DNA from: Bacteroidota bacterium
GTDB taxonomy: Bacteria > Bacteroidota > Bacteroidia > Palsa-965
Length of the DNA: 37,614 bases
Assembly: GCA_021299855.1 (NCBI GenBank)
Contig: JAJTEY010000018.1
Location: 1-37,614 of the forward strand
Direction: 5' to 3'
The notes under the pieces were generated by a model. It was not told the DNA's origin, ran no database searches, and worked only from the letters and a program-made list of their open reading frames with translations. Below, piece after piece: positions 25,620-36,754 of the stretch (position 1 is its first letter; each line of letters starts with the position of its first letter). The translations under genes and the position numbers were made by a program.

Positions 25620-25655
25620 TTGTAAACTAATCTGTATTTACAAGTGAATTTTACA
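25620..25655 (+). promoter_or_regulatory. Candidate operator upstream of the MerR/B12 regulator
   Basis: TTGTAAA (25620-25626) and TTTACAA (25637-25643) form an inverted repeat, with another TTTACA at 25650-25655. The 13-mer ATCTGTATTTACA (25630-25642) recurs before folE (27244-27256). TTTACA fits the TnTACA half-site described for CarH repressors, so autoregulation is plausible. Confidence 0.4.
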
Positions 25656-25665
25656 ACTAGCTCAT

Positions 25666-26541
25666 ATGCCCGCCAAATACTCCATTAAAGATTTAGAACG
25701 CCTATCAGGAATTAAGGCTCATACATTGCGTATCTGGGAACAGCGGTATGAACTGTTCAGCCCTGCTAGAACTACTACTAATATTCGTTGGTACACAGCC
25801 GGAGATTTAAGAAAACTGCTTAATGTAAGCGTTTTGAACAATCACGGCATTAAGATTTCCAAGATTGCATCCATGAATGAAGATGCAATTAATAAACTCG
25901 TTGTTGAATATACGGAATCCACCAGCGATGAGACGGAACAAGTAACGGCATTGGTAATGGCAATGGTGGATTTGAATGAGGCGCGTTTCGACAAGATCAT
26001 TTCGTTGTGCTTTATGCGTTTCGGGTTTGAAAAAACCGTAGAAGAAATCATTTACCCGTTCTTCCGAAAGATTGGCGTGATGTGGCAAACAGGAAGCATC
26101 AATCCTGTGCAGGAGCATTTCATTTCGAATTTGGTGCGCCAAAAAATTATCGTTGCTATTGATGGGCTGGTTCCAACTCAAATAGAACAACCTAAAACTT
26201 TTGTTTTGTATTTACCTAATAATGAATTGCACGAGTTGTCGCTGTTGTATTACTGCTACAAAATCAGAAGTCGTGGCCATCAGGTTATTTATTTAGGTCA
26301 AAGCGTTCCTGTTGAAGATTTGGAAACATCATTTGATCAACGTCCACCACATTTCTTTTTAACTGTATTGACGCATGAAATAAAAGATGTGAATTTGCAG
26401 GAATACCTGAACCGTTTAAGCAAGAAATTCCCTGAAAGTACATTTCTGGTTAGCGGTTTTCAGATGATGAAACGCAAATTGAGTTTACCCAGAAACATTC
26501 AGGTATTTAAAGATCCTTCCGACATTCATGTTCACCTATAA
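25666..26541 (+). CDS. MerR-family regulator with B12-binding domain (CarH/LitR type)
   Basis: Residues 1-70 are a MerR-type winged-helix domain (YSIKDLERLSGIKAHTLRIWEQRYEL...RWYTAGDLRKL). Residues ~90-165 are the helical cobalamin cap, with Trp140 followed by Glu150-His151, the Wx9EH motif that holds the adenosyl group in CarH. Residues ~178-291 are a Rossmann-like cobalamin domain in which E187-L-H189-E-L-S192 corresponds to the ExHxxG motif with Gly replaced by Ser. His189 would be the lower axial ligand. CarH/LitR proteins repress photoprotection genes in the dark and release DNA when light breaks the Co-C bond of adenosylcobalamin. Sigma-factor, folE and photolyase genes downstream support the same role here. 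Confidence 0.85.
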   Translation: MPAKYSIKDLERLSGIKAHTLRIWEQRYELFSPARTTTNIRWYTAGDLRKLLNVSVLNNHGIKISKIASMNEDAINKLVVEYTESTSDETEQVTALVMAMVDLNEARFDKIISLCFMRFGFEKTVEEIIYPFFRKIGVMWQTGSINPVQEHFISNLVRQKIIVAIDGLVPTQIEQPKTFVLYLPNNELHELSLLYYCYKIRSRGHQVIYLGQSVPVEDLETSFDQRPPHFFLTVLTHEIKDVNLQEYLNRLSKKFPESTFLVSGFQMMKRKLSLPRNIQVFKDPSDIHVHL

Positions 26542-26558
26542 ATGAGTTTTATTAAACG

Positions 26559-26585
26559 AAAAGACCGTTAAATCCGTCTTTTTTT
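26559..26585 (+). terminator. Terminator after the MerR/B12 regulator gene
   Basis: AAAAGAC (26559-26565) pairs with GTCTTTT (26576-26582) around a ten-base loop and runs into more T residues. It separates the regulator gene from the sigma-factor promoter. Confidence 0.6.
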
Positions 26586-26630
26586 GCTCCTTCTCAAAAT
26601 TTATATCATTGATTTCCAATACAATAACAA

Positions 26631-26713
26631 TTCTGTTTAAGTTTTAACACTTTTTGTTAAACGACAATGTTTGTTCTGTTTAATGTTTTTATACTTTTGT
26701 TAAACAACAAACA
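26631..26713 (+). repeat. Duplicated 43-bp operator-like repeat upstream of the ECF sigma gene
   Basis: Two 40-base units start at 26631 and 26674, exactly 43 bases apart and ungapped relative to each other. Each begins TTCTGTTTAA and, after 11 variable bases, has TTTTGTTAAACRACAA. Within each unit TGTTTAA and TTAAACR form an inverted repeat separated by 16 bases (26634-26640/26657-26663 and 26677-26683/26700-26706). Unit 2 contains the -7 box of the sigma-factor promoter, so a protein bound there would block transcription. Confidence 0.7.
26670..26699 (+). promoter_or_regulatory. Promoter of the ECF sigma gene
   Basis: TTTG (26670-26673) and TACTTTTG (26692-26699) are 18 bases apart and match the Bacteroidota -33/-7 elements. 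The start site would be near 26706, leaving a leader of about 17 bases. The -7 box is enclosed by the half-sites of the second operator-like repeat. Confidence 0.6.
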
Positions 26714-26722
26714 CAAATACAC

Positions 26723-27229
26723 ATGACCGCAATAGAATTCAACGAACAGCTTATCAAGCAACGCAGCGCTTTAAAAAACTTTGCATTGAGCTTGACCTCC
26801 GATCCGGAAGATGCACAAGATCTTCTTCAGGAAACCATGTTGAAAGCTTTAACGTATCGAGAAAAATTTGCGGACTCGACAAACTTAAAAGCATGGTTAT
26901 ACATGATCATGAAGAATACGTTTATTAATTCATATCGCCGTGCAGTGAAAACACGCGAGATCATGCAGAAGTCGAAAGATCAAGCAATGACGCACTTTGT
27001 CGGCACTGTTCACAAAAATGCGTCGGAGTCGCGTTTAAACGAAAAAGAAATCCGTCGTTGCATCGAACTGTTGGAAGACGATTACAAAATTCCATTCACA
27101 CGTTTCTACAATGGATTTAAATACAAGGAAATTGCAGACGAGATGAATCTGCCGATCGGAACAGTGAAGAGTAGAATTTTTCTGGCTCGTAAAAAGCTGA
27201 TGGATCAGTTATCCGATTTTCAGAATTAA
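26723..27229 (+). CDS. ECF-type RNA polymerase sigma factor
   Basis: This 168-residue sigma-70-family protein contains region 2 (about 10-75: SLTSDPEDAQDLLQETMLKAL, then NLKAWLYMIMKNTFINSYRR) and region 4 (about 110-165: GFKYKEIADEMNLPIGTVKSRIFLARKKL, a helix-turn-helix for -35 recognition). No anti-sigma gene lies next to it. Control therefore probably acts on its own transcription, through the duplicated operator-like repeat just upstream. In known CarH/LitR systems a light-induced ECF sigma factor drives the photolyase and pigment genes. That role is inferred here from position. Confidence 0.93.
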   Translation: MTAIEFNEQLIKQRSALKNFALSLTSDPEDAQDLLQETMLKALTYREKFADSTNLKAWLYMIMKNTFINSYRRAVKTREIMQKSKDQAMTHFVGTVHKNASESRLNEKEIRRCIELLEDDYKIPFTRFYNGFKYKEIADEMNLPIGTVKSRIFLARKKLMDQLSDFQN

Positions 27230-27243
27230 TTTTTTATCACTTT

Positions 27244-27256
27244 ATCTGTATTTACA
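27244..27256 (+). promoter_or_regulatory. Shared 13-mer upstream of folE
   Basis: ATCTGTATTTACA here is identical to 25630-25642 upstream of the MerR/B12 regulator. It contains TGTA-TT-TACA, a short inverted repeat. It lies 37 bases before the folE ATG and may be a regulator site or part of an alternative-sigma promoter. Confidence 0.4.
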
Positions 27257-27293
27257 TATTTTTTCATGTTTTATCTTTTTAATTAAACAAAAT

Positions 27294-27965
27294 ATGCGCA
27301 ACTCCCCTATTTCCCTTAATGTTCACGAAATCGGTGACGAACATTTTTCCGTCTCCATGGAAACACCACTGCGCCCGGACGCTTTTCAGCTGGACGATGA
27401 ACTGAAAATGGAATTGATTGAAAAACACTTCCGCGACATTATGCATGTATTGGGTTTGGATCTTCAGGACGACAGTTTAAAGGGAACTCCCGCACGTGTG
27501 GCAAAGATGTTCGTGAAAGAAGTGTTCAGCGGCTTAGATCCAAAAAATAGACCGAGCGTTAAACTCTTCGAGAACAAGTACAACTACAACAGTATGCTGG
27601 TGGAGAAAAATATCACGTTGTATTCGTTCTGTGAACATCATTTTATTCCGATCATAGGAGTTGTACACGTGGCCTACATTCCGAAAGATAAAGTTGTTGG
27701 CCTATCCAAACTGAATCGCATCGTGCGCTATTTTGCAAAGCGTCCTCAGGTACAAGAGCGTTTGACCGTACAGATCGCTAACGAACTGCGGACATTGCTC
27801 GAAACTGATGATGTTGCAGTTTATATTGACGCGAAACACTTGTGCGTATCAGCTCGTGGTGTAGAAGATACAGCCAGTTCAACCGTTACATCCAGTTACC
27901 ACGGAAAATTCAACAGCGAAAAAACACGAAGTGAGTTTTTGAATTCATTCTCTTGCGGTCAATGA
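27294..27965 (+). CDS. folE: GTP cyclohydrolase I
   Basis: FolE converts GTP to dihydroneopterin triphosphate, the entry to folate and pterin synthesis. The 223 residues include the zinc ligands Cys113 and His116 (SFCEHHFIP) and Cys184 (KHLCVSARG). The substrate motif GLSKLNRIVRYFAKRPQVQERLT is also complete. In photolyase clusters a FolE copy plausibly raises the supply of methenyl-tetrahydrofolate or other pterin antenna for photolyases and cryptochromes. It may therefore be a second, regulated copy. It is preceded by the 13-mer shared with the regulator gene, and its stop overlaps the SDR start (ATGA). Confidence 0.96.
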   Translation: MRNSPISLNVHEIGDEHFSVSMETPLRPDAFQLDDELKMELIEKHFRDIMHVLGLDLQDDSLKGTPARVAKMFVKEVFSGLDPKNRPSVKLFENKYNYNSMLVEKNITLYSFCEHHFIPIIGVVHVAYIPKDKVVGLSKLNRIVRYFAKRPQVQERLTVQIANELRTLLETDDVAVYIDAKHLCVSARGVEDTASSTVTSSYHGKFNSEKTRSEFLNSFSCGQ

Positions 27966-28648
27966 GTGTTGTAGCCATTATAGGAGCGACTTCGGGCATA
28001 GGCCTTGCAATAGCCGAAAAAGCGATTGCCCAAGGTCATGAAGTACATAGCTTTTCCGGAAGAACGGGTAATCCGTCTTCACTTTTGCATCAGCAATATA
28101 ATGCTGTTGATCCGGGCTCAACGCCAATTAACGTTCCGGAAAAAGTTGATCATTTAATTTACACGCCGGGATCGATTAACCTGAAACCGTTCCATCGTAT
28201 TACTAACGAGGAATGGATTCAGGAATTTAATATCAACGTGCTCGGCGCTGTGCAAACCATACGATTATTTCTGCCCGCGTTAAAACAAGGCACAAATTCA
28301 TCTGTGACGTTGTTTAGTTCTGTAGCTGCCCAAACCGGCATGCCGTTTCATACAAGTATTGCGGCGATGAAAGGCGCAGTAGAAGGATTAACACGTTCGC
28401 TGGCGGCGGAATTTGCACCGCATATTCGCGTAAATGCCATAGCGCCTTCACTTACGGAAACGCCGCTTGCCGAAAAATTGACCGCAACTCCGGAGAAAAA
28501 AGAAAGTGCCGGTAAACGTCATCCCCTTCAACGTATCGGAACTGCGCAAGATCAGGCGGATGCCGCTATTTTTCTGATGTTTCATGCACCATGGATGACC
28601 GGACAAATTTTGAAAGTTGACGGAGGATTATCAGCACTGAAAATGTAG
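27962..28648 (+). CDS. SDR-family protein lacking the catalytic tyrosine
   Basis: This 228-residue protein has a Rossmann fold with the cofactor motif [14 protein letters not shown] (8-21), [11 protein letters not shown] and the C-terminal ITxx-like [20 protein letters not shown]. These are typical of classical short-chain dehydrogenases. The ATG at 27962 overlaps the folE stop. At the usual YxxxK active site the sequence is SIAAMK, with Ile133 in place of Tyr and Lys137 kept; Ser120 is present. It may be an inactive or altered SDR, perhaps acting on pterins given folE upstream. That is inference. The SDR fold is certain; the substrate is unknown. Confidence 0.88.
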
Positions 28649-28815
28649 TGACACATCATAAACTAAGGTTGCCGTTTAAAATATGCGTCAGTTGTAACCG
28701 ACCCTTCAACTGGAGAAAAAAATGGGAACGCGATTGGGAGTCGGTAAAATATTGTAGCGAACGATGTAAATCAAACGCAAAGAGAAATGGAAACGTGCGG
28801 AATAGTTTGGGTTAG
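28648..28815 (+). CDS. DUF2256 zinc-ribbon small protein
   Basis: This 55-codon gene starts with GTG at 28648, overlapping the SDR stop (TAGTG), and ends at 28815, 29 bases inside the photolyase gene. The protein reads [19 protein letters not shown], then [15 protein letters not shown]. Four cysteines in two CxxC-type pairs (13, 16, 36, 40) and the Trp/Arg-rich FxWRKKWxRDWxxVKYCSxxC core match DUF2256. Such proteins are commonly encoded beside cryptochrome/photolyase and DUF2805 genes, as here. It probably binds zinc; its role is unknown. It is short enough that gene callers could miss it. Confidence 0.88.
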
Positions 28816-30181
28816 AAACGATTTACGAATTACCGATCACGAGCCTTTACTGAAGGCAACTCAAAAGCATGATCGGATCATTCCCTGTTTTATTTACGAC
28901 CCTAAAATTCATCCTCAACTATCCGACAATACTTTTCGTGCCGGATTCCTCAATGAAACATTGCTATGGTTAAAATCCGAATTGCAGCAGCGTGGTTCCG
29001 ATTTACTTATCGCAAGCGGTAATAGCGCCGAAGAACTAATTAAAATTTCTAAACGGTATAAGGTAAGCGGAATTTATGCGCACGAAGAATATGCGCCATA
29101 CGAGAAACAAATTGAAGCGGAAGTCAATGCGTTGGCTCTGCGCAACAAAATTGAAACGCACTTCTATCATGGCAATGCCTTAATTCCAAAAACAGAACTC
29201 CCCTTCTCTATTACTCATCTTCCTGATGTTTTTACAAAATTTCGATCGCGAGTTGAATTGACTTCTCAATTTGCAAAACCCTTACCGGACTTTACGATGA
29301 AGCCATTGCCGACTATTCCTGCAGAAGAACTTCAATCGAATTTTCTAACCATAAATAAATCATCCCCACTATTTAAAGCAGGAACGGAAAGCGCATTGCA
29401 ACGATTGAAGTATTATTCCTTTGAGCAACATTTATTGCCTAAATATTTCGAGACGCGCAACGGTTTGTTACACTTTGATGATTCCACAAAACTGTCACCA
29501 TGGTTAGCTGTAGGCAGCATTACACCGGCAATGATTCTGCAGGAAGTGGAGCAGTACGAAAAACAATTTGGTGCGAATAAATCAACCTACTGGGTAAAAT
29601 TTGAATTGTTGTGGCGGGATTATTTTCGCTTAGTGGTTAAAAAATTCGGAGCACAACTTTTTCAATACGGCGGAATTCGTAATCGCACTGCAGAACCTAT
29701 CAAATGTGATGATAAACGTATCAAGGCTTGGACAAACGGCAACACCGGATTTCCAATAATTGATGCCATCATGCGCGAATTGCAACAAACCGGATATACT
29801 TCCAATCGTGGAAGACAACTGGCTGCTAGTTTTTTTGTCCACGATCTACAACAAGACTGGAGAATTGGAGCGCTGTACTTTGAACAACAATTAATCGATT
29901 ACGATGTGCATAGTAATTGGGGAAACTGGGCCTACATTGCAGGAGTTGGCAATGATCCACGGCCTGAACGCTACTTCAATATTCCGGCTCAATCGGAACG
30001 TTATGATCCACACGCAGACTTCATCAAGTCGTATTGTCCTGAATTGAAAGATGTACCGACTAAAAATCTTCATCACTTTCATGAATACTCCGAATCCTTT
30101 GTAAATTCCTTCGGGATTCAGTTGGGTGAACATTATCCCGCGCCAATTGTCCAATTAAGCATGCACGCAATAAAACATTAA
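28787..30181 (+). CDS. Cryptochrome DASH-type photolyase
   Basis: The 464 residues comprise an N-terminal Rossmann-like antenna domain ([15 protein letters not shown], about 7-21) and a C-terminal FAD-binding helical domain. The FAD domain shows [60 protein letters not shown] and the DASH-like [35 protein letters not shown] proteins repair cyclobutane pyrimidine dimers mainly in single-stranded DNA and bind methenyl-tetrahydrofolate. The start overlaps the small DUF2256 gene. Separation from ordinary class I photolyase rests on the VGNDPR...FNI segment and should be treated as likely. Confidence 0.9.
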
Positions 30182-30184
30182 ACC

Positions 30185-30655
30185 ATGGCCGTATATAAAA
30201 TTGAGCAAACGCAATTCATTCCAATCTCTCTCGACGAAGCGTGGCACTTTTTTTCTTCTCCTAAAAATTTGGACACGATAACGCCACCCGACATGACATT
30301 TAAAATTACCTCGGGTAATGAAAATGAACCGTTACATGCGGGACAAATTATCACGTATAAAGTGAGCCCTTTCGCGGGAATAAAAATGTTTTGGTTAACA
30401 GAAATCACACATGTTGTAGACCGGCAGTATTTCGTGGATGAACAACGATTCGGTCCTTATACAATGTGGCACCATCGTCACTTTTTTGAAGCAGTGGAAG
30501 GTGGTGTAAAAATGCGCGATGTGGTTTATTACAAACTGCCGCTGGGCTTTCTGGGAGATATTGCGCATGCAATATTCGTTAAGAAAAAGCTTCAAAATAT
30601 TTTCGGCTATCGTTATACCAAACTTGAACAATTGTTTGGAAAATGGAATCGTTAA
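30185..30655 (+). CDS. SRPBCC (START/Bet v1-like) family protein
   Basis: This 156-residue protein starts with a Bet v1-like ligand-pocket fold: QTQFIPISLDEAWHFFSSPKNLDTITPPDMTFKI, and later LTEITHVVDRQYFVDEQRFGPYTMWHHRHFFEAVEGG. Proteins of this type often accompany photolyase or cryptochrome genes in similar clusters, but their function is not known. It starts 4 bases after the cryptochrome stop and overlaps the next gene by 13 bases, so it is part of the operon. No catalytic motif is evident and a hydrophobic ligand is only a possibility. Confidence 0.8.
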   Translation: MAVYKIEQTQFIPISLDEAWHFFSSPKNLDTITPPDMTFKITSGNENEPLHAGQIITYKVSPFAGIKMFWLTEITHVVDRQYFVDEQRFGPYTMWHHRHFFEAVEGGVKMRDVVYYKLPLGFLGDIAHAIFVKKKLQNIFGYRYTKLEQLFGKWNR

Positions 30656-30918
30656 CACCGCAGGAAATTGATCGTGTTATTGAAATGGCGTGGGAAGACC
30701 GCACGCCGTTTGACGCTATACGGAAACAGTTCAGTTTAAAAGAAGCTGATGTCATTGCACTCATGCGCCGCGAATTGCTTCCCAAGTCTTTCGAACGTTG
30801 GCGCAAACGTGTTTCAGGCAGAGCCACAAAACATCTCAAAAAAAGAACGTTTACTTCAGGTACATTCAAATGCGACGCACAACGCGCTATTACCGGAAAC
30901 CGAATCAGTAAACGATGA
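30643..30918 (+). CDS. DUF2805 / TIGR03643 family protein
   Basis: This 91-residue protein has the conserved core LTPQEIDRVIEMAWEDRTPFDAIRKQFSLKEADVIALMRREL, followed by SFERWRKRVSGRATKHLKKR. The core looks like a helix-turn-helix-like pair of helices and the tail is basic, so nucleic-acid binding is plausible. The family is known mainly by its association with cryptochrome and photolyase genes. It overlaps the SRPBCC gene by 13 bases and the PhrB-type photolyase by 4 (ATGA), which argues for translation coupling. The C-terminal ~25 residues are less conserved. Function unknown. Confidence 0.87.
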   Translation: MESLTPQEIDRVIEMAWEDRTPFDAIRKQFSLKEADVIALMRRELLPKSFERWRKRVSGRATKHLKKRTFTSGTFKCDAQRAITGNRISKR

Positions 30919-32450
30919 GCACGCGCACCGTACGATTAATCCTTGGCGATCAATTGAATTCCGGGCACAGCTGGTTTTCTGCAGTGGATCCCGATGTCCT
31001 TTATGTGATGATGGAGGTGCGTCAGGAAACCGATTACGTACGCCACCACATTCAAAAAGTTGTTGCCATATTTATGGCCATGCGTGCATTTGCTCAACAA
31101 TTGCGTTCTCAGGGCCATCAGGTCCACTACATTTCTCTAGACGATCCACAAAACAAACAGCGTATAAATGAAAATATTCTTGCCGTGCTCTCCGCCCACA
31201 AAGCCGACAAATTTGAATATCAGGAACCGGATGAATATAGATTAGATCAAGAACTGAGTATATTTTGCAAGTCGCTATCTATAGCATCTGCATGTTGTTC
31301 AACAGAACATTTCTTTACGACAAGAAATGCATTAGCAGATTTCTTCAAAGGGAAAAAAACGTTTTTGATGGAGTCGTTTTACCGCAACATGCGCAAGCAA
31401 ACGGGAATACTAATGCAAGATGATCAACCCGAGGGTGAAAAATGGAATTACGATCACGATAATCGACACACGTTCTCTGCTGTATTACCACCACCCGTTA
31501 AAGAATTTGAGCATGATGCTTCGGAAATCGTTGAACTGCTGAAAACACATCAGGTTGATACCATAGGAAAGATTGAGAACAACGTCAACATATGGCCTGT
31601 TAACAGAACGGAAGCATTAGCGGTGCTGATTCATTTCGTTACCGAACTTTTACCTTCATTCGGAACATATCAGGATATGATGAGTACTGATCATGCGTAC
31701 TTGTATCATTCGCGACTTTCATTTGCTTTGAATATAAAAATGATTACACCGCATGAAGTGGTTGATGCAGCCTTGACACAGTATCGTAAACAACCAGAGA
31801 CTATTTCGTTAGCTCAAGTTGAAGGTTTTGTGCGTCAGATACTGGGATGGCGGGAATATATGCGCGGAATTTACTGGGCCGCAATGCCTGAATTTGCAAC
31901 GCACAATTACTTCAATCACCACCGCAAACTTCCATCATGGTTTTGGACGGGCGAAACTAAAATGAATTGCTTAAGACATGCCATTCGTCAATCGCTGAAT
32001 TTGGGATACGCTCACCACATCCAGCGACTCATGATCACCGGAAACTTCGCGCTACTTGTAGGCATTCACCCTGATGAAACGGACCAATGGTATTTAGGCA
32101 TTTATATAGATGCATTCGAATGGGTGGAAATCACGAATACGCGCGGAATGAGTCAATACGCGGATGGCGGCATTGTAGGTTCAAAACCTTATTGTTCAAG
32201 TGGAGCCTATATTTCGAAAATGAGTAACTACTGCAAAAGTTGTTCGTACAGTGTGAAAGAAAAAACAGGAGCTCACGCCTGTCCGTTCAATTCATTATAC
32301 TGGCACTTTCACGTTCGAAATCGTAGTACGTTGGAACGCAATCCAAGAATAGGAATGGTGTATCGCACATGGGATAAAATGAATGCGGATCATCAACGTT
32401 TGTTATTGGATCAGGCCACGCAGTATTTGAACACGATTGAATCGTTATAA
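30915..32450 (+). CDS. Iron-sulfur photolyase, PhrB / CryB type
   Basis: This 511-residue member of the bacterial cryptochrome/photolyase group carries a [4Fe-4S] cluster. Cys352, Cys440, Cys443 and Cys456 are spaced exactly as Cys350, 438, 441 and 454 of Agrobacterium PhrB, the (6-4) photolyase. The N-terminus (RLILGDQLNSGHSWF) is typical of the group, and the FAD domain has YHSRLSFALNIKMITP, FVRQILGWREYMRGIYW and DAFEWVEITNTRGMSQYADGG. PhrB uses a ribityllumazine antenna. Together with the DASH protein it gives two photoenzymes of different lineage in one unit. Its end overlaps the convergent downstream gene by 6 bases. Confidence 0.94.
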   Translation: MSTRTVRLILGDQLNSGHSWFSAVDPDVLYVMMEVRQETDYVRHHIQKVVAIFMAMRAFAQQLRSQGHQVHYISLDDPQNKQRINENILAVLSAHKADKFEYQEPDEYRLDQELSIFCKSLSIASACCSTEHFFTTRNALADFFKGKKTFLMESFYRNMRKQTGILMQDDQPEGEKWNYDHDNRHTFSAVLPPPVKEFEHDASEIVELLKTHQVDTIGKIENNVNIWPVNRTEALAVLIHFVTELLPSFGTYQDMMSTDHAYLYHSRLSFALNIKMITPHEVVDAALTQYRKQPETISLAQVEGFVRQILGWREYMRGIYWAAMPEFATHNYFNHHRKLPSWFWTGETKMNCLRHAIRQSLNLGYAHHIQRLMITGNFALLVGIHPDETDQWYLGIYIDAFEWVEITNTRGMSQYADGGIVGSKPYCSSGAYISKMSNYCKSCSYSVKEKTGAHACPFNSLYWHFHVRNRSTLERNPRIGMVYRTWDKMNADHQRLLLDQATQYLNTIESL

Positions 32451-32855
32451 CGCGTTTAGTTTTTGAAGAATAACGTTGTGTTGTGTATGAAAACGTTCAG
32501 TCAACAGCGAACTTATCCGTTTACCAACTTCCCTTCGATGCAGTTGAATAAATTCTAATTCCGATTTTGTACAATGGGTTCGTAACATTGAGAAGACTTT
32601 GTTTCTTAATGTTTGCTTAGTTGCCACGATCGAATGAATTAAGGCTTCCCTTTCCTTTTCATGAGCAGAAAGATATTTTGCTTTGCTTTTCCCGAGTGAA
32701 CGCACGAAAGCATCAATCAAATCGTTATTCCATTGTTTGAACAAGGGTCGTAATACCAAACCTTGAAACGATTCAACCGGCAATGCTATCGCGGGATCAA
32801 ATGAGACAGATGGTCGTGTATCAGTATATTCCTCTTCGTTGCTTGCAGATGCCAT
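32445..32855 (-). CDS. Uncharacterised small protein, possibly nucleic-acid or stress related
   Basis: I do not recognise this 136-residue protein. The start at 32855 (MASASNEEEYTD) is preferred over longer frames, which would run antisense into the response-regulator gene. It opens with a polar, probably disordered ~20 residues, then SFDPAIALPVESFQGLVLRPLFKQWNNDLIDAFVRSLG. A long basic helical half follows, with many Lys, Arg, Glu and His residues (KAKYLSAHEKEREALIHSIVATKQTL). It has no signal peptide or membrane segment. It converges on the PhrB-type photolyase with a 6-base overlap and diverges from the response regulator by 19 bases. Confidence 0.6.
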   Translation of the reverse strand: MASASNEEEYTDTRPSVSFDPAIALPVESFQGLVLRPLFKQWNNDLIDAFVRSLGKSKAKYLSAHEKEREALIHSIVATKQTLRNKVFSMLRTHCTKSELEFIQLHRREVGKRISSLLTERFHTQHNVILQKLNAL

Positions 32856-32874
32856 TGTAATTGTAAATTTACGT

Positions 32875-33621
32875 ATGATAAGATCAGTAATCGTTGATGA
32901 TTCCGTTGAAGCTGTAAACAGTTTAAAAGCCGACCTTACACAATGGTGTCCGGAGGTTTCACTGATAGGTACCGCAGACAGTGTCAAAGAGGGAATTCAA
33001 CTTATTCAACAAACAAAACCTCAACTGGTTTTTCTGGATATTCAGTTAGGAGATGGAGAAGGATTCGATATCCTTAATGAACTTCAAGATCCGGACATCC
33101 AGGTCATATTTACAACGGGCTTAGATAATCAGGGAATTCGGGCAATAAAATACAGTGCTTTAGATTATTTACTCAAACCTGTTGATCCCGATGAATTGAT
33201 TGAAGCGGTTAAGAAAGCACGCGGTAAAGAATTACAGCAAAGTCTTTCGGACAATTTGAAACTCTTACGAGATTATTTGAGTTCGGGTTCACCTACTCCG
33301 AAGCGCCTTGCCTTAAATAGTGCCGATCGTGTCCATGTAATTCAAACCAATGAAATTATTCGTTGCGAATCGGAGCGCAACTACACCACTTTCTTTTTAT
33401 CTACAGGAAAACAAATTGTGGTGACACGCACTTTAAAAGAGTACGAAGAACTTTTGGAACCGATTGGCTTTGTGCGTGTGCATCATTCGCATTTGATCAA
33501 CATCGAATTCCTCAAAGAATTTGTCAAACAAGATGGCGGTTATGTGCTGATGAAAGATGGCAGTAATGTTCCGGTTTCGGTTAGAAAAAAAGAAGATCTG
33601 CTGCGGATATTAGGTCTATAA
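32875..33621 (+). CDS. LytTR-family response regulator (orphan)
   Basis: The 248 residues are a two-domain response regulator. The receiver (about 1-120) has the acidic pair Asp8-Asp9, phosphoacceptor Asp55 (VFLDIQLGDGEGF), Thr80 and Lys101 (YLLKPVDP). The LytTR DNA-binding domain (about 148-245) includes IIRCESERNYTTFF, RTLKEYEELL, FVRVHHSHLINIEFLKEF and the end VPVSVRKKEDLL. I use the ATG at 32875, which starts on the usual MIRSVIVDDS. No sensor kinase is adjacent. Its targets cannot be deduced, although the divergent small gene is a natural candidate. A strong terminator follows. Confidence 0.94.
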   Translation: MIRSVIVDDSVEAVNSLKADLTQWCPEVSLIGTADSVKEGIQLIQQTKPQLVFLDIQLGDGEGFDILNELQDPDIQVIFTTGLDNQGIRAIKYSALDYLLKPVDPDELIEAVKKARGKELQQSLSDNLKLLRDYLSSGSPTPKRLALNSADRVHVIQTNEIIRCESERNYTTFFLSTGKQIVVTRTLKEYEELLEPIGFVRVHHSHLINIEFLKEFVKQDGGYVLMKDGSNVPVSVRKKEDLLRILGL

Positions 33622-33670: not shown

Positions 33671-36600
33671 TTATCTCGGTTTCGCAGGTGCAGGAGTTTC
33701 CTGCTTTGGAGTAGTTGTTGGAAGAGAAGGAGCCGGTTTCGTTGCAGGCGTATCTTTCTTGGCTTCCGTCTTTTTCGGTTCTGTTTTCGCAGGCTCCGTC
33801 TTCTTTGGTTCCGTCTTTTGGGGCTCCGTTTTAGAAGGAGTCGATTTGGAAGGCGTGTTTTGTGTGCGGCTATTCGCGTACGTCACAGTTAACGTATTCT
33901 GAGCATACCCAATATTATTCTGCGCCTTCACTTCAATGGTGTTTGTACCCTGATTCAAGTTAGCTGTAAAAGTAACTGTACCGGTCTGCGCATTGAAATT
34001 AATACCCGACATCATGCGAACACCGTTCACTTTAACTCCGAATTGTGAAGCTGAAGTAATTCCTGTAACCTGCATTGTTACCGCCAACTGTTGAGTTGGA
34101 GATGTGTAATTGGTTGTTGACGGTGTTATCAATGTAATAACCGGATCACTTGGTGTAGGAGTCGGTGTCGGTGACGGATTGGTTGGGTTCGTCGGATTCG
34201 GAGGTGTCGGATTCGATGGATTGCTTGGTGGAACAACCGTTGTCTGACCCGGACGTGAATTACCCGGCTGTTGAGTTGGTGTAGGAGAGGGATTGTTATT
34301 ACCAGGATCCTGAGCACCACCGCCCGGACTTGTATTCACCAATTTAATTGTAGTGGCATCATTCGCAGATCCTGCAGAATTAGTTGCAGTAACGGTATAC
34401 ACGTTTGCTCCAGGCACACAATTATCACTAAACGTAACAGTATTCGAAACTGCATTGTAGTTAAACGGAACATCTGTACCATTTAAGCGCTTCACCGTAA
34501 TCTGCGATGCCGATGTAACATTCAACACAGTAGCAATAAGAGTTTGTTGCGGCGTACTAGTAATAAACGGATTCGCAGACGGTGTAGTGATATTCACCAC
34601 AGGAGGTTGCACTACAGGAGCCGGTGTGTAAGCGATAGTTGTTGATTTACTATCTGAACCAACACTGTTTGTACCTGTTACAGTAAATACGTTATTGCCT
34701 GAAGTCAATGTAGCATTGATCGTCACCACTTTTGTTGAGGCGTTGTATGAGAATGAACTTACAGCCGCATTGTTTTGAGTAACAGTAATGTCGCTCTGAC
34801 CGTTCACGTTCAACACTGTTGCAATTACCGTTGTGTTCTGAGTTGGAGAAATAAACGGTGTTGAAGCCGGTGTCGTAATCGTCACAACAGGTGGTGGTGA
34901 TGTCTGAGTGGTCTTGTAAGTAATAACACAAGATTTCGAATTGGTACCGGCAGTATTTGTACCGGTAATAGTCAGATTATTACTACCGCTTACAAATGAT
35001 GCGGGGAATGACACTGTCGCAACACCATTAGCAACATTGAAAGTAAAGTTTGTTACCGGTGCGTTGTTCAAGTTAATTGCAACTTGACTCATCGAAGTAA
35101 CATTAGTTACGGTAGCAGCAATTGTCATCGATGCAGTCTTTGTAGAGTATGGACAAACATTTGGAGACGTAATCGTAACTACAGGAGGCTGCAATGTTTG
35201 TGTCGGATTGTAATTAATAGTAACTACATCAGATGCACTGCCAAAATTATTTGTACCAATTACTTCGTACGTGTTTGCTCCTTGCTGCAAATTAGCCGTA
35301 AATGTTACCTGACCATTTACAGGATTGAACGAGAATCCGGAAATAGCAACACCGTTACGCTTCACCTGTACATTAGCCTGGGAAGTAACATTTACAATTG
35401 TTGCGGTAACATTTGTTGTTGGTGCTAACGATGTAAACGGATCAACTCCGGGATTGGTGATCGTTACTTGCGGAGGAACACCACTGTTGTTCGGATTCGG
35501 ATTATTCTGACTGTAAATAATCGTCTGATTATCAGATGCACTTCCCGCATTATTGGTTGCAATTACAGAATAGGTATTTGTTCCTGCCAGCAAATTGTGC
35601 GAGAAGGTCATCGTGTTTGTTGTCGGGTTGAAATTGAACGCAGTGCTCACCTGTCCATTGATCGTTAAACTGATTTGACTGGATGACAATACACGCTCAA
35701 TACGTACCACCAAATTTTGTGTAGGCACAGTAGCTGTAAACGGATTCGTTGCAGGTGTTGTAAACGATACTATTGGAGGTAACTGAACCGGATTATTAGG
35801 ATTAACCGGAGTCTGATTCGGATTTGGAGGTGGAGGATTCGTCACAACCGGATTTGGATTCGTCGGGTTGTTCGGATTCGGATTGGTGTTATACGAATTC
35901 GGATTCGGAGGAGGCGGAGGAGGATTGTTCGTGGAAGTTGTAGATTCTGCACGACCAAAAGTCCAGCGAATAAACATGCCCGCATAATGATACATGTCGT
36001 TATTAGGAGTAGCAGCCCCAATGTAATCGTGACGCGTACCATCAATAACATCATTCAACGCGAATGTGGTGCGGTGCTCAATTCCAATTGCAAATGCGCG
36101 ACCAAACTGATAACCCATTCCAAAACCTGCAGAAGGCATGAATGACCATTTCGCAGTCGGACTTCCGTCAGCTGCCGTTTCATAAGTATCATCCCACAAT
36201 GCTTCCAGTTGTCCACGAACGATATTATCCATACCAAACTCATTGATGCCGGAATAATTGTACATCATCCCGTTTTCATCCAACTGGTTGGTTGTCGTCT
36301 TCCAGTAGTTCATCCCTACTCCACCAAAGCCATAGAGCAGAAAACCACTTTTACGCAAGCTGTTGCTTCCGATAATTAATTCCAATGCAAACTCATCGTA
36401 TCGGAATTTGTAATTACTGAATACATAACCGCCATTTGAAGCGTAATTGGTTGCACCACTGCTTAACACCGGATTCGATTGCAATCCTGTTAACGCATTG
36501 TAGTTGTAACCATAATTTCTTCCATCCTGAAAACGGAAACGGGCTCCATAATACAACGGACCCGGTTTACTCATTCGGGAATATTTAGTTGCGGTAATGC

Positions 36601-36754
36601 CCCAACCAAATCCACCCAACGGTTTCATGTCGCTGGTTTGGAAGGTTCCGCCCATATTGACGCCCCACCACCATGGGTTGCGTTCTCTTAATGCCTGAGC
36701 ATTGGCCTTTACACCGAGGAAGGTAAACAATGCGATAAAATAAAATAGTCTCAT
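33671..36754 (-). CDS. Surface protein: predicted outer-membrane barrel plus six Ig-like repeats
   Basis: The 1027 residues are built as follows. A signal peptide (1-19) precedes a ~250-residue aromatic/Gly-rich domain (20-268) with the alternating pattern of an OmpA/PorV-like beta-barrel. A Pro/Asn linker (275-325) leads to five tandem ~97-residue Ig-like modules (326-810), each PPxVxITxP...F...xVxNVxS...FxxNxxxxxVTFxxxLxxGxNxYxVxxTNxxGSxS. A second Pro-rich linker (811-870), a sixth module (871-962) and a KTEPKK/KTEPAK tail complete it. The modules resemble extracellular adhesin/Big-type domains. There is no C-terminal secretion signal of the type IX kind. It is probably anchored by the N-terminal barrel with the repeats exposed. 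Function is unknown. Confidence 0.75.
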   Translation of the reverse strand: MRLFYFIALFTFLGVKANAQALRERNPWWWGVNMGGTFQTSDMKPLGGFGWGITATKYSRMSKPGPLYYGARFRFQDGRNYGYNYNALTGLQSNPVLSSGATNYASNGGYVFSNYKFRYDEFALELIIGSNSLRKSGFLLYGFGGVGMNYWKTTTNQLDENGMMYNYSGINEFGMDNIVRGQLEALWDDTYETAADGSPTAKWSFMPSAGFGMGYQFGRAFAIGIEHRTTFALNDVIDGTRHDYIGAATPNNDMYHYAGMFIRWTFGRAESTTSTNNPPPPPPNPNSYNTNPNPNNPTNPNPVVTNPPPPNPNQTPVNPNNPVQLPPIVSFTTPATNPFTATVPTQNLVVRIERVLSSSQISLTINGQVSTAFNFNPTTNTMTFSHNLLAGTNTYSVIATNNAGSASDNQTIIYSQNNPNPNNSGVPPQVTITNPGVDPFTSLAPTTNVTATIVNVTSQANVQVKRNGVAISGFSFNPVNGQVTFTANLQQGANTYEVIGTNNFGSASDVVTINYNPTQTLQPPVVTITSPNVCPYSTKTASMTIAATVTNVTSMSQVAINLNNAPVTNFTFNVANGVATVSFPASFVSGSNNLTITGTNTAGTNSKSCVITYKTTQTSPPPVVTITTPASTPFISPTQNTTVIATVLNVNGQSDITVTQNNAAVSSFSYNASTKVVTINATLTSGNNVFTVTGTNSVGSDSKSTTIAYTPAPVVQPPVVNITTPSANPFITSTPQQTLIATVLNVTSASQITVKRLNGTDVPFNYNAVSNTVTFSDNCVPGANVYTVTATNSAGSANDATTIKLVNTSPGGGAQDPGNNNPSPTPTQQPGNSRPGQTTVVPPSNPSNPTPPNPTNPTNPSPTPTPTPSDPVITLITPSTTNYTSPTQQLAVTMQVTGITSASQFGVKVNGVRMMSGINFNAQTGTVTFTANLNQGTNTIEVKAQNNIGYAQNTLTVTYANSRTQNTPSKSTPSKTEPQKTEPKKTEPAKTEPKKTEAKKDTPATKPAPSLPTTTPKQETPAPAKPR
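33761..33832 (-). repeat. KTEP-type tandem repeat in the tail of the surface protein
   Basis: Residues ~975-998 are four KTEP copies separated by QK, KK or AK, from an imperfect 18-base tandem in the gene. It makes a highly charged, probably disordered end and may vary in copy number between strains. Confidence 0.6.

Follow-up and report, generated by a model that had tools for sequence, protein, structure and literature searches.

A predicted light-responsive photorepair operon in Bacteroidota and the operator family that it shares with carotenoid and proteorhodopsin genes

Introduction

Is a compact group of photorepair genes in a Bacteroidota genome controlled by light, and through which protein and DNA site? 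The question is raised by nine plus-strand open reading frames (ORFs) in Bacteroidota bacterium GCA_021299855.1, contig JAJTEY010000018.1, at positions 25666..32450 of the analysed stretch of 37,614 nt (the window, whose positions are used throughout). The genome comprises 2.08 Mb in 88 contigs and is 72% complete. The genes encode a MerR regulator, an extracytoplasmic function (ECF) sigma factor, GTP cyclohydrolase I (FolE), a short-chain dehydrogenase/reductase (SDR), DUF2256, CRY-DASH, SRPBCC and DUF2805 proteins, and an iron-sulfur (FeS) bacterial cryptochrome/photolyase (DPRP). All nine ORFs are present where the initial annotation placed them, and its family assignments stand, that of SRPBCC weakly. 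It missed the absence of the catalytic Tyr in the SDR, the absence of His132 in the sensor, and the duplication of folE.

The locus is read here as a light-response photorepair operon, with a probability of about 0.7, in which a B12-dependent repressor would impose the light control. It is supported by an inverted-repeat operator that accompanies the regulator across the phylum and lies beside other photobiology genes. Light sensing in Bacteroidota is poorly described; light-pigmented Chryseobacterium has been reported, with the regulatory mechanism given as unknown in the accessible passages of PMC7064467. A computed operator with its regulator leads directly to experiment, and proteorhodopsin is among the predicted targets.

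The predicted operator

The inverted repeat TGTTTAA-N16-TTAAACA was first suggested by reading the intergenic DNA between the regulator gene and the gene that follows it. The window has three sites with at most two mismatches against 0.45 expected, and none of 100 shuffles reaches three. Across 200 loci (3.38 Mb, window included), the N16 spacing gives 114 sites with at most one mismatch, while the other spacings between 6 and 30 each give 2–23; these loci are interrelated, and L081 and L187 look like one contig. Perfect operators also lie 22–25 bp (centre to start) upstream of folE in three loci (L224, L227, and L234).

The operator is distributed with the regulator. Among 148 genomes of the phylum, an exact operator occurs in 25 of the 30 with a regulator ortholog and in 2 of the 118 others (Fisher 3.4e-21). 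Orthologs are matches above 170 bits, and weaker MerR matches in 77 further genomes (E<=0.001) are counted as absent; the co-occurrence p-values are nominal because the genomes are related. Exact sites number 71 against 4 for reversed-pattern controls in the regulator genomes, and 2 against 3 in the other 118. Two genomes (G012 and G095) have a TetR-ABC1 kinase photolyase cluster and no regulator, and the exact operator was not found in them; the operator thus tracks the MerR regulator and not TetR. This phylum-wide co-occurrence suggests that the regulator acts at the predicted operator.

The half-site TAAACA fits the TnnACA of CarH, although the arrangement is inverted with N16 rather than a tandem direct repeat. 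CarH operators are tandem 11-bp nnnnTnnACAn repeats according to the available text of PMC9304148.

The sequence TAnnTTTG, which we take to be the Bacteroidota -7 promoter element, peaks at offsets -5, 16, and 36 of 164 oriented sites, with 21, 21, and 23 occurrences; the next highest offset has 6. The peaks lie within and close to the operator at steps of about 20 bp, the pattern that is expected for occlusion of a promoter.

Genes beside the operator in other genomes

All 73 exact sites from the 148 genomes were inspected, of which 59 lie in one locus set and 14 within the 200-locus set. The 59-locus set also includes one exact site of another genome and four one-mismatch sites, and so comprises 64 operator rows in 57 of the 59 loci. 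Seven of the 64 rows lie inside ORFs. A near gene (within 150 bp) belongs to a named family in 23 of the 57 loci and is a fasciclin gene in 13, with one locus having both. The named families are ECF, merR, crtI, TetR, SRPBCC, flavin reductase-DPRP, PTPS-FolE-SDR, SDR, SDR-DUF2867, and proteorhodopsin/Blh.

Exact sites stand upstream of ECF-crtI-crtB, TetR-ABC1 kinase clusters, SRPBCC-SDR-photolyase, flavin reductase-DPRP, and PTPS-FolE-SDR. Two genomes have the operator between divergent genes for proteorhodopsin and Blh, a beta-carotene dioxygenase (L307:2219-3979 and L312:2295-4004). The gene that follows the regulator on the same strand (n=46) is ECF in 18 cases, crtI in 5, and unlabelled in 15; in the remaining 8, no gene follows or it lies on the opposite strand. 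L240 and L070 have a single merR-ECF pair before crtI-crtB, followed by a photolyase-family gene, DUF2256, DPRP, an SDR-DUF2867 protein, and SRPBCC.

That these neighbours of operator and regulator are photobiology genes is the chief argument for light as the proposed signal. The shared operator points to a light regulon of photorepair, carotenoid, and proteorhodopsin genes. The initial annotation had proposed that the regulator governs the sigma factor and the repair genes, and this agrees with the occurrence of all of them under one operator family that is common to carotenoid and proteorhodopsin genes.

The fasciclin genes within 150 bp of an exact operator are found in 13 loci of 11 genomes; 12 are confirmed by Pfam, and that of L306 is detected by a custom profile only. 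The loci are L279, L283, L284, L286, L288, L291, L295, L298, L303, L306, L309, L319, and L320, and the encoded proteins look secreted.

The regulator

The window regulator matches the CarH structures 3whp and 5c8d (phmmer E 7e-17 and 8e-17), with homology across the DNA-binding and B12 parts. Both the MerR helix-turn-helix (PF13411) and the helical B12 domain (PF02607) are matched. Its score of 90.4 bits against the CarH equivalog NF052513 is far below the curated cut-off of 400. Judged by these similarities, the protein is a Bacteroidota relative of CarH/LitR.

An alignment of 47 regulators (46 from the fetched loci and the window, plus TtCarH) has equivalents of Trp131 in 47, Glu141 in 47, and His177 in 46, and all three are present in the window protein. 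His142 is kept in 46-47 of the 47, window protein included. Gln occupies position 132 in 33 of the 47, including the window protein; 12 have I/M/L/S/A there, and of the 2 with His one is TtCarH. His132 is the photoproduct ligand in TtCarH and is reported as critical for disassembly. Retention of the residues that contact adenosylcobalamin (AdoCbl) makes cobalamin binding plausible, while the replacement of His132 means that the release step may differ. The helical B12 domain is present in 16 of 16 family members scanned and the Rossmann domain PF02310 in 11 of 16 at E<=0.01. A cobalamin adenosyltransferase gene is present in the same genome and in 7 of 7 close genomes. Because it lacks His132, such a CarH-like protein would help to show which part of the CarH photoswitch cannot be dispensed with.

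Gene organization

The tight packing after folE that was described initially can be read off the coordinates, with overlaps or a 3-bp gap from folE to DPRP. The overlap of folE with the SDR gene depends on the SDR start and is 4 bases (ATGA) for ATG 27962 and 13 for TTG 27953. SDR and DUF2256 overlap by 1 base, DUF2256 and CRY-DASH by 29, SRPBCC and DUF2805 by 13, and DUF2805 and DPRP by 4, and the gap between CRY-DASH and SRPBCC is 3 bp. The merR and ECF sigma genes each have their own intergenic DNA upstream, with 181 bp between merR and ECF and 64 bp between ECF and folE. By this spacing, folE to DPRP form one coupled seven-gene unit behind two regulatory genes. A genome of the same genus (L221) keeps the order merR-ECF-folE-SDR-DASH-SRPBCC-DUF2805-DPRP, with DUF2256 unlabelled in its map.

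Proposed mechanism and alternatives

In the dark, the CarH/LitR-like repressor would be loaded with AdoCbl and sit on the TGTTTAA-N16-TTAAACA operators. The occupied sites would overlap the TAnnTTTG element of the ECF gene and also lie just upstream of folE. Light would photolyse the cobalamin and release the repressor, and the sigma factor would be made. The seven-gene folE-DPRP unit would then be transcribed and would supply CRY-DASH, the FeS photolyase, a second GTP cyclohydrolase for reduced pterin, and four small helper proteins.

Several results weigh against this reading. Five of the 30 regulator genomes have no exact operator, and the copy before the window folE is degenerate. Sites with at most one mismatch number 16 in the genus and family of the window genome (7 genomes) against 20 for the reversed control, so single sites at that stringency prove nothing. 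The fetched loci are mutually related, with at least one duplicate. No recognised near gene is found in 22 of the 57 site loci, an unlabelled gene is faced by 70 of the 164 oriented sites, and the crtI gene elsewhere in the same genome has no site with at most one mismatch. His132 is absent in 45 of the 47 aligned regulators, which may mean a different release step or possibly a protein that is not photoactive, and PF02310 gives no Pfam match in the window regulator. A target promoter of the ECF factor is weakly suggested at ATCTGTATTTACA, a candidate noticed post hoc, which has identical copies before merR and folE. Of 20 ECF-linked regulators, 4 have an exact ATCTGT at -32 to -39 of merR; the interval lacks it in the 14 best-listed of 36 regulators without ECF.

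The replacement of His132, by Gln or another residue, would also fit a repressor of the CarA or class II LitR type. Such a protein would keep the B12 fold without sensing light itself, and a partner photoreceptor, singlet oxygen, or redox change would release it, so that the genes would still form a photo-stress operon. The missing Pfam match to the Rossmann domain is in line with this, as is the class II LitR of Pseudomonas, an effector of a LOV photoreceptor in the available passages of PMC9758184. Yet the equivalents of Trp131, Glu141, and His177 are near-invariant, as expected under selection for AdoCbl binding, and the family domain counts also speak for a retained cobalamin module; this version is considered unlikely, if worth keeping in mind. 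The operators before fasciclin genes, which have no obvious light role, and before unlabelled genes would suit a neighbourhood of DNA-repair and pterin genes that is expressed constitutively, with no control by light, and whose operator serves general stress or development. That account is highly improbable, given sites before proteorhodopsin/Blh in two genomes and before crtI/crtB and photolyase-cluster genes in more.

A narrower alternative concerns the SDR, which could be a conventional reductase acting on pteridine or sepiapterin and, together with FolE, complete a tetrahydropterin pathway. The adjacency of FolE and SDR fits this, as does PTPS-FolE-SDR in L280, and the folM-folE-folX operon of P. 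mendocina responds to illumination according to part of PMC9758184. However, the Tyr position of the YxxxK motif is V in 37, I in 24, and X (unread) in 1 of 62 aligned sequences, Ile in the window, while Lys is kept in all 62. The replacement of the catalytic Tyr makes a binding or otherwise atypical role more likely than that of an ordinary reductase, and the reductase account is improbable.

The light-response operon is thus preferred, and a wider form of it is proposed tentatively, at a little under an even chance. It holds that one B12-type light regulon at TGTTTAA-N16-TTAAACA, common to many Bacteroidota, may cover photorepair, carotenoids, proteorhodopsin/retinal, pterin supply, and fasciclin surface proteins, and that its photoreceptor may signal without His132. 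A dedicated accessory set (DUF2256, DUF2805, SRPBCC, and Tyr-less SDR) would then be needed for the maturation or action of cryptochrome and FeS photolyase.

Photoenzymes, possible pterin supply and proposed accessory proteins

CRY-DASH scores 461.8 bits against the TIGR02765 cut-off of 317.05 and matches a solved CRY-DASH structure, 1np7. Cys352, 440, 443, and 456 of DPRP align with Cys of the FeS-BCP structure 7ykn and are presumably the FeS cluster ligands. The folE product is a GTP cyclohydrolase I (NF006824, 293.4 bits against a cut-off of 202). Another folE copy is located at G000:C66 of the same genome, and two copies occur in 4 of 7 genomes of its genus and family. The second, operator-linked FolE would fit an extra supply of pterin or folate for the CRY-DASH antenna.

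DUF2256 occurs in 50 and DPRP in 49 of the 148 genomes, with both in 46 (nominal p 8e-30). DUF2805 is found in 43, of which 38 also have DUF2256 and 37 also have DPRP. Five genomes have DPRP or CRY-DASH without DUF2256. A listed photolyase-family gene is found no more than 8 kb away from at least 35 of the 50 DUF2256 genes and at least 17 of the 47 DUF2805 genes. Independence of the small genes from photolyases, raised by the initial annotation, is hardly seen for DUF2256: two of the 50 genomes have neither FeS photolyase nor CRY-DASH, and their DUF2256 matches are marginal at 24.6 and 27.7 bits against a cut-off of 25. For DUF2805 it is partly seen, in 5 of 43 genomes, two of which have a divergent paralog only. 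The occurrence of DUF2805 alone in many genomes, and its paralog, indicate a looser photolyase tie than that of DUF2256.

The suggestion that the small genes form an accessory set gains ground, since SDR-like, DUF2256, SRPBCC, and DUF2805 genes recur as a conserved module with CRY-DASH, FeS photolyase, and FolE. The DUF2805 survey covers the best 80 of 582 loci, many of them from Flavobacteriaceae and many ended by contig edges. These contain a photolyase/cryptochrome-family gene in 45 (broad DASH profile), SDR in 43 (40 above 250 bits), DPRP in 38, SRPBCC in 34, ABC1 kinase in 33, TetR in 31, DUF2256 in 30, flavin reductase in 30, and FolE in 28.

DUF2256 has four invariant Cys (27 sequences), and its structural model most closely resembles YacG, a gyrase inhibitor, and FCS zinc fingers, a weakly significant match. 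A small zinc-bound partner protein is the likeliest role on these grounds. By alignment and model, DUF2805 is small and helical and has a basic tail that is conserved, and the fold search with its model gave no confident match. The SRPBCC assignment of the window protein is weak: it has no Pfam match even at E 0.1, but of 17 aligned members of its family, 13 match Polyketide_cyc at E<=0.1, the best of them with E 6.6e-5. The four small proteins most likely support the flavoenzymes, through assembly or the hand-over of cofactor or DNA. This gives specific proteins to consider as missing partners of CRY-DASH and FeS photolyases.

Comparison with known systems

CarH/LitR regulons of Thermus, Myxococcales, and Bacillus share with this locus the MerR domain, the helical B12 domain, the W/E/H contacts, and the TnnACA half-site, and carotenoid genes are preceded by relatives of the window regulator. 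The window differs in having Gln for His132, an N16 inverted repeat instead of tandem 11-bp direct repeats, and photorepair targets. The folM product is an SDR. In P. mendocina and P. putida, the LitR-linked genes include light-induced folE, folM, cryB, and phrB, but the class II LitR has the helical B12 domain only and serves a LOV sensor, and gene set and order differ from the window (accessible parts of PMC9758184). The MerR/ChrR blue-light response of Vibrio cholerae likewise involves a MerR protein, and PMC5241685, judged by its title, term counts and the start of its abstract, mentions photolyase and a sigma factor, whereas no ChrR-like gene is among the nine window genes. A photolyase-linked cluster of proteorhodopsin-bearing Flavobacteriia is already published, with no regulator, operator, or small accessory genes named in the available part of PMC5932025. 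MliR of Bizionia was considered as a counterpart and set aside, as it is another kind of MerR protein that lacks an effector domain (part of PMC9478572).

CarH/LitR light regulons, the light-induced folE/SDR/cry genes of Pseudomonas (PMC9758184), and the Flavobacteriia cluster (PMC5932025) are thus in print already, as far as the accessible portions of these sources go. The literature search found no paper linking DUF2256 with cryptochrome. In the DUF2256/DUF2805/TIGR03643 literature, the word photolyase is absent from the available part of PMC3597751. The operator is unmentioned in the titles and abstract starts among the matches listed, with most subscription papers outside the search. At the level of listings and passages, a phylum-wide operator-regulator link, a joint proteorhodopsin/fasciclin regulon, the missing His132, and a Tyr-less SDR were not found.

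Features and neighbouring genes

Table 1. Positions of genes and predicted sites in the window.
Feature	Position	Strand	Evidence or remark
ATCTGTATTTACA, candidate ECF-dependent promoter element (weak)	25630..25642	+	before merR; identical 13-mer before folE
CarH/LitR-like MerR regulator, B12-binding-type C-terminus	25666..26541	+	Pfam MerR_1, B12-binding_2
Predicted operator copy 1, TGTTTAA-N16-TTAAACG	26634..26663	+	1 mismatch
Predicted operator copy 2, TGTTTAA-N16-TTAAACA	26677..26706	+	perfect; spans TAnnTTTG at 26692-26699
ECF sigma factor	26723..27229	+	Pfam Sigma70_r2, r4_2
ATCTGTATTTACA, second copy of candidate ECF element	27244..27256	+	before folE
Degenerate predicted operator before folE	27260..27289	+	2 mismatches
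GTP cyclohydrolase I (folE, second genomic copy)	27294..27965	+	NF006824 293.4 bits
SDR-fold protein without catalytic Tyr	27953..28648, likely start ATG 27962	+	Pfam adh_short_C2
DUF2256, small four-Cys zinc-finger-like protein	28648..28815	+	PF10013 E 2.7e-20
CRY-DASH	28787..30181	+	TIGR02765 461.8 bits; PDB 1np7 E 6.4e-108
SRPBCC-like protein	30185..30655	+	family-level Polyketide_cyc match
DUF2805/TIGR03643 small helical protein, basic tail	30643..30918	+	PF10985 E 8.9e-33, TIGR03643
FeS bacterial cryptochrome/photolyase (DPRP)	30915..32450	+	PF04244 E 1e-78; 7ykn E 5e-179

An Rfam scan of the window gave no family above the gathering score. Two further photolyase/cryptochrome genes are present in the same genome (G000:C42:31315-32535 and G000:C65:5811-7013), on contigs without operators of at most one mismatch. 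Several loci have proteins of about 370 aa with the FAD_binding_7 half only, near or next to DUF2805 or DUF2256 (L070:7541-8641 on the minus strand, L063, L092, L093, L098, L210, and L220), and the one that was scanned has no PF00875. They are possibly an undescribed cryptochrome-like flavoprotein. The divergent DUF2805 paralog (2805b) occurs in six loci (L103, L105, L113, L115, L119, and L128). An AlkB-type 2OG-Fe(II) oxygenase gene lies near it in L113, L115, L119, and L128, which hints at a wider DNA-repair link. TspO and glutathione peroxidase genes are present within the example locus L143. Downstream of the operon, the window has a gene for a LytTR-type response regulator at 32839-33621. 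It is followed on the minus strand, at 33671-36754, by a gene for a 1027-aa protein that, by eye, contains a series of similar repeats and Pro/Asn-rich stretches.

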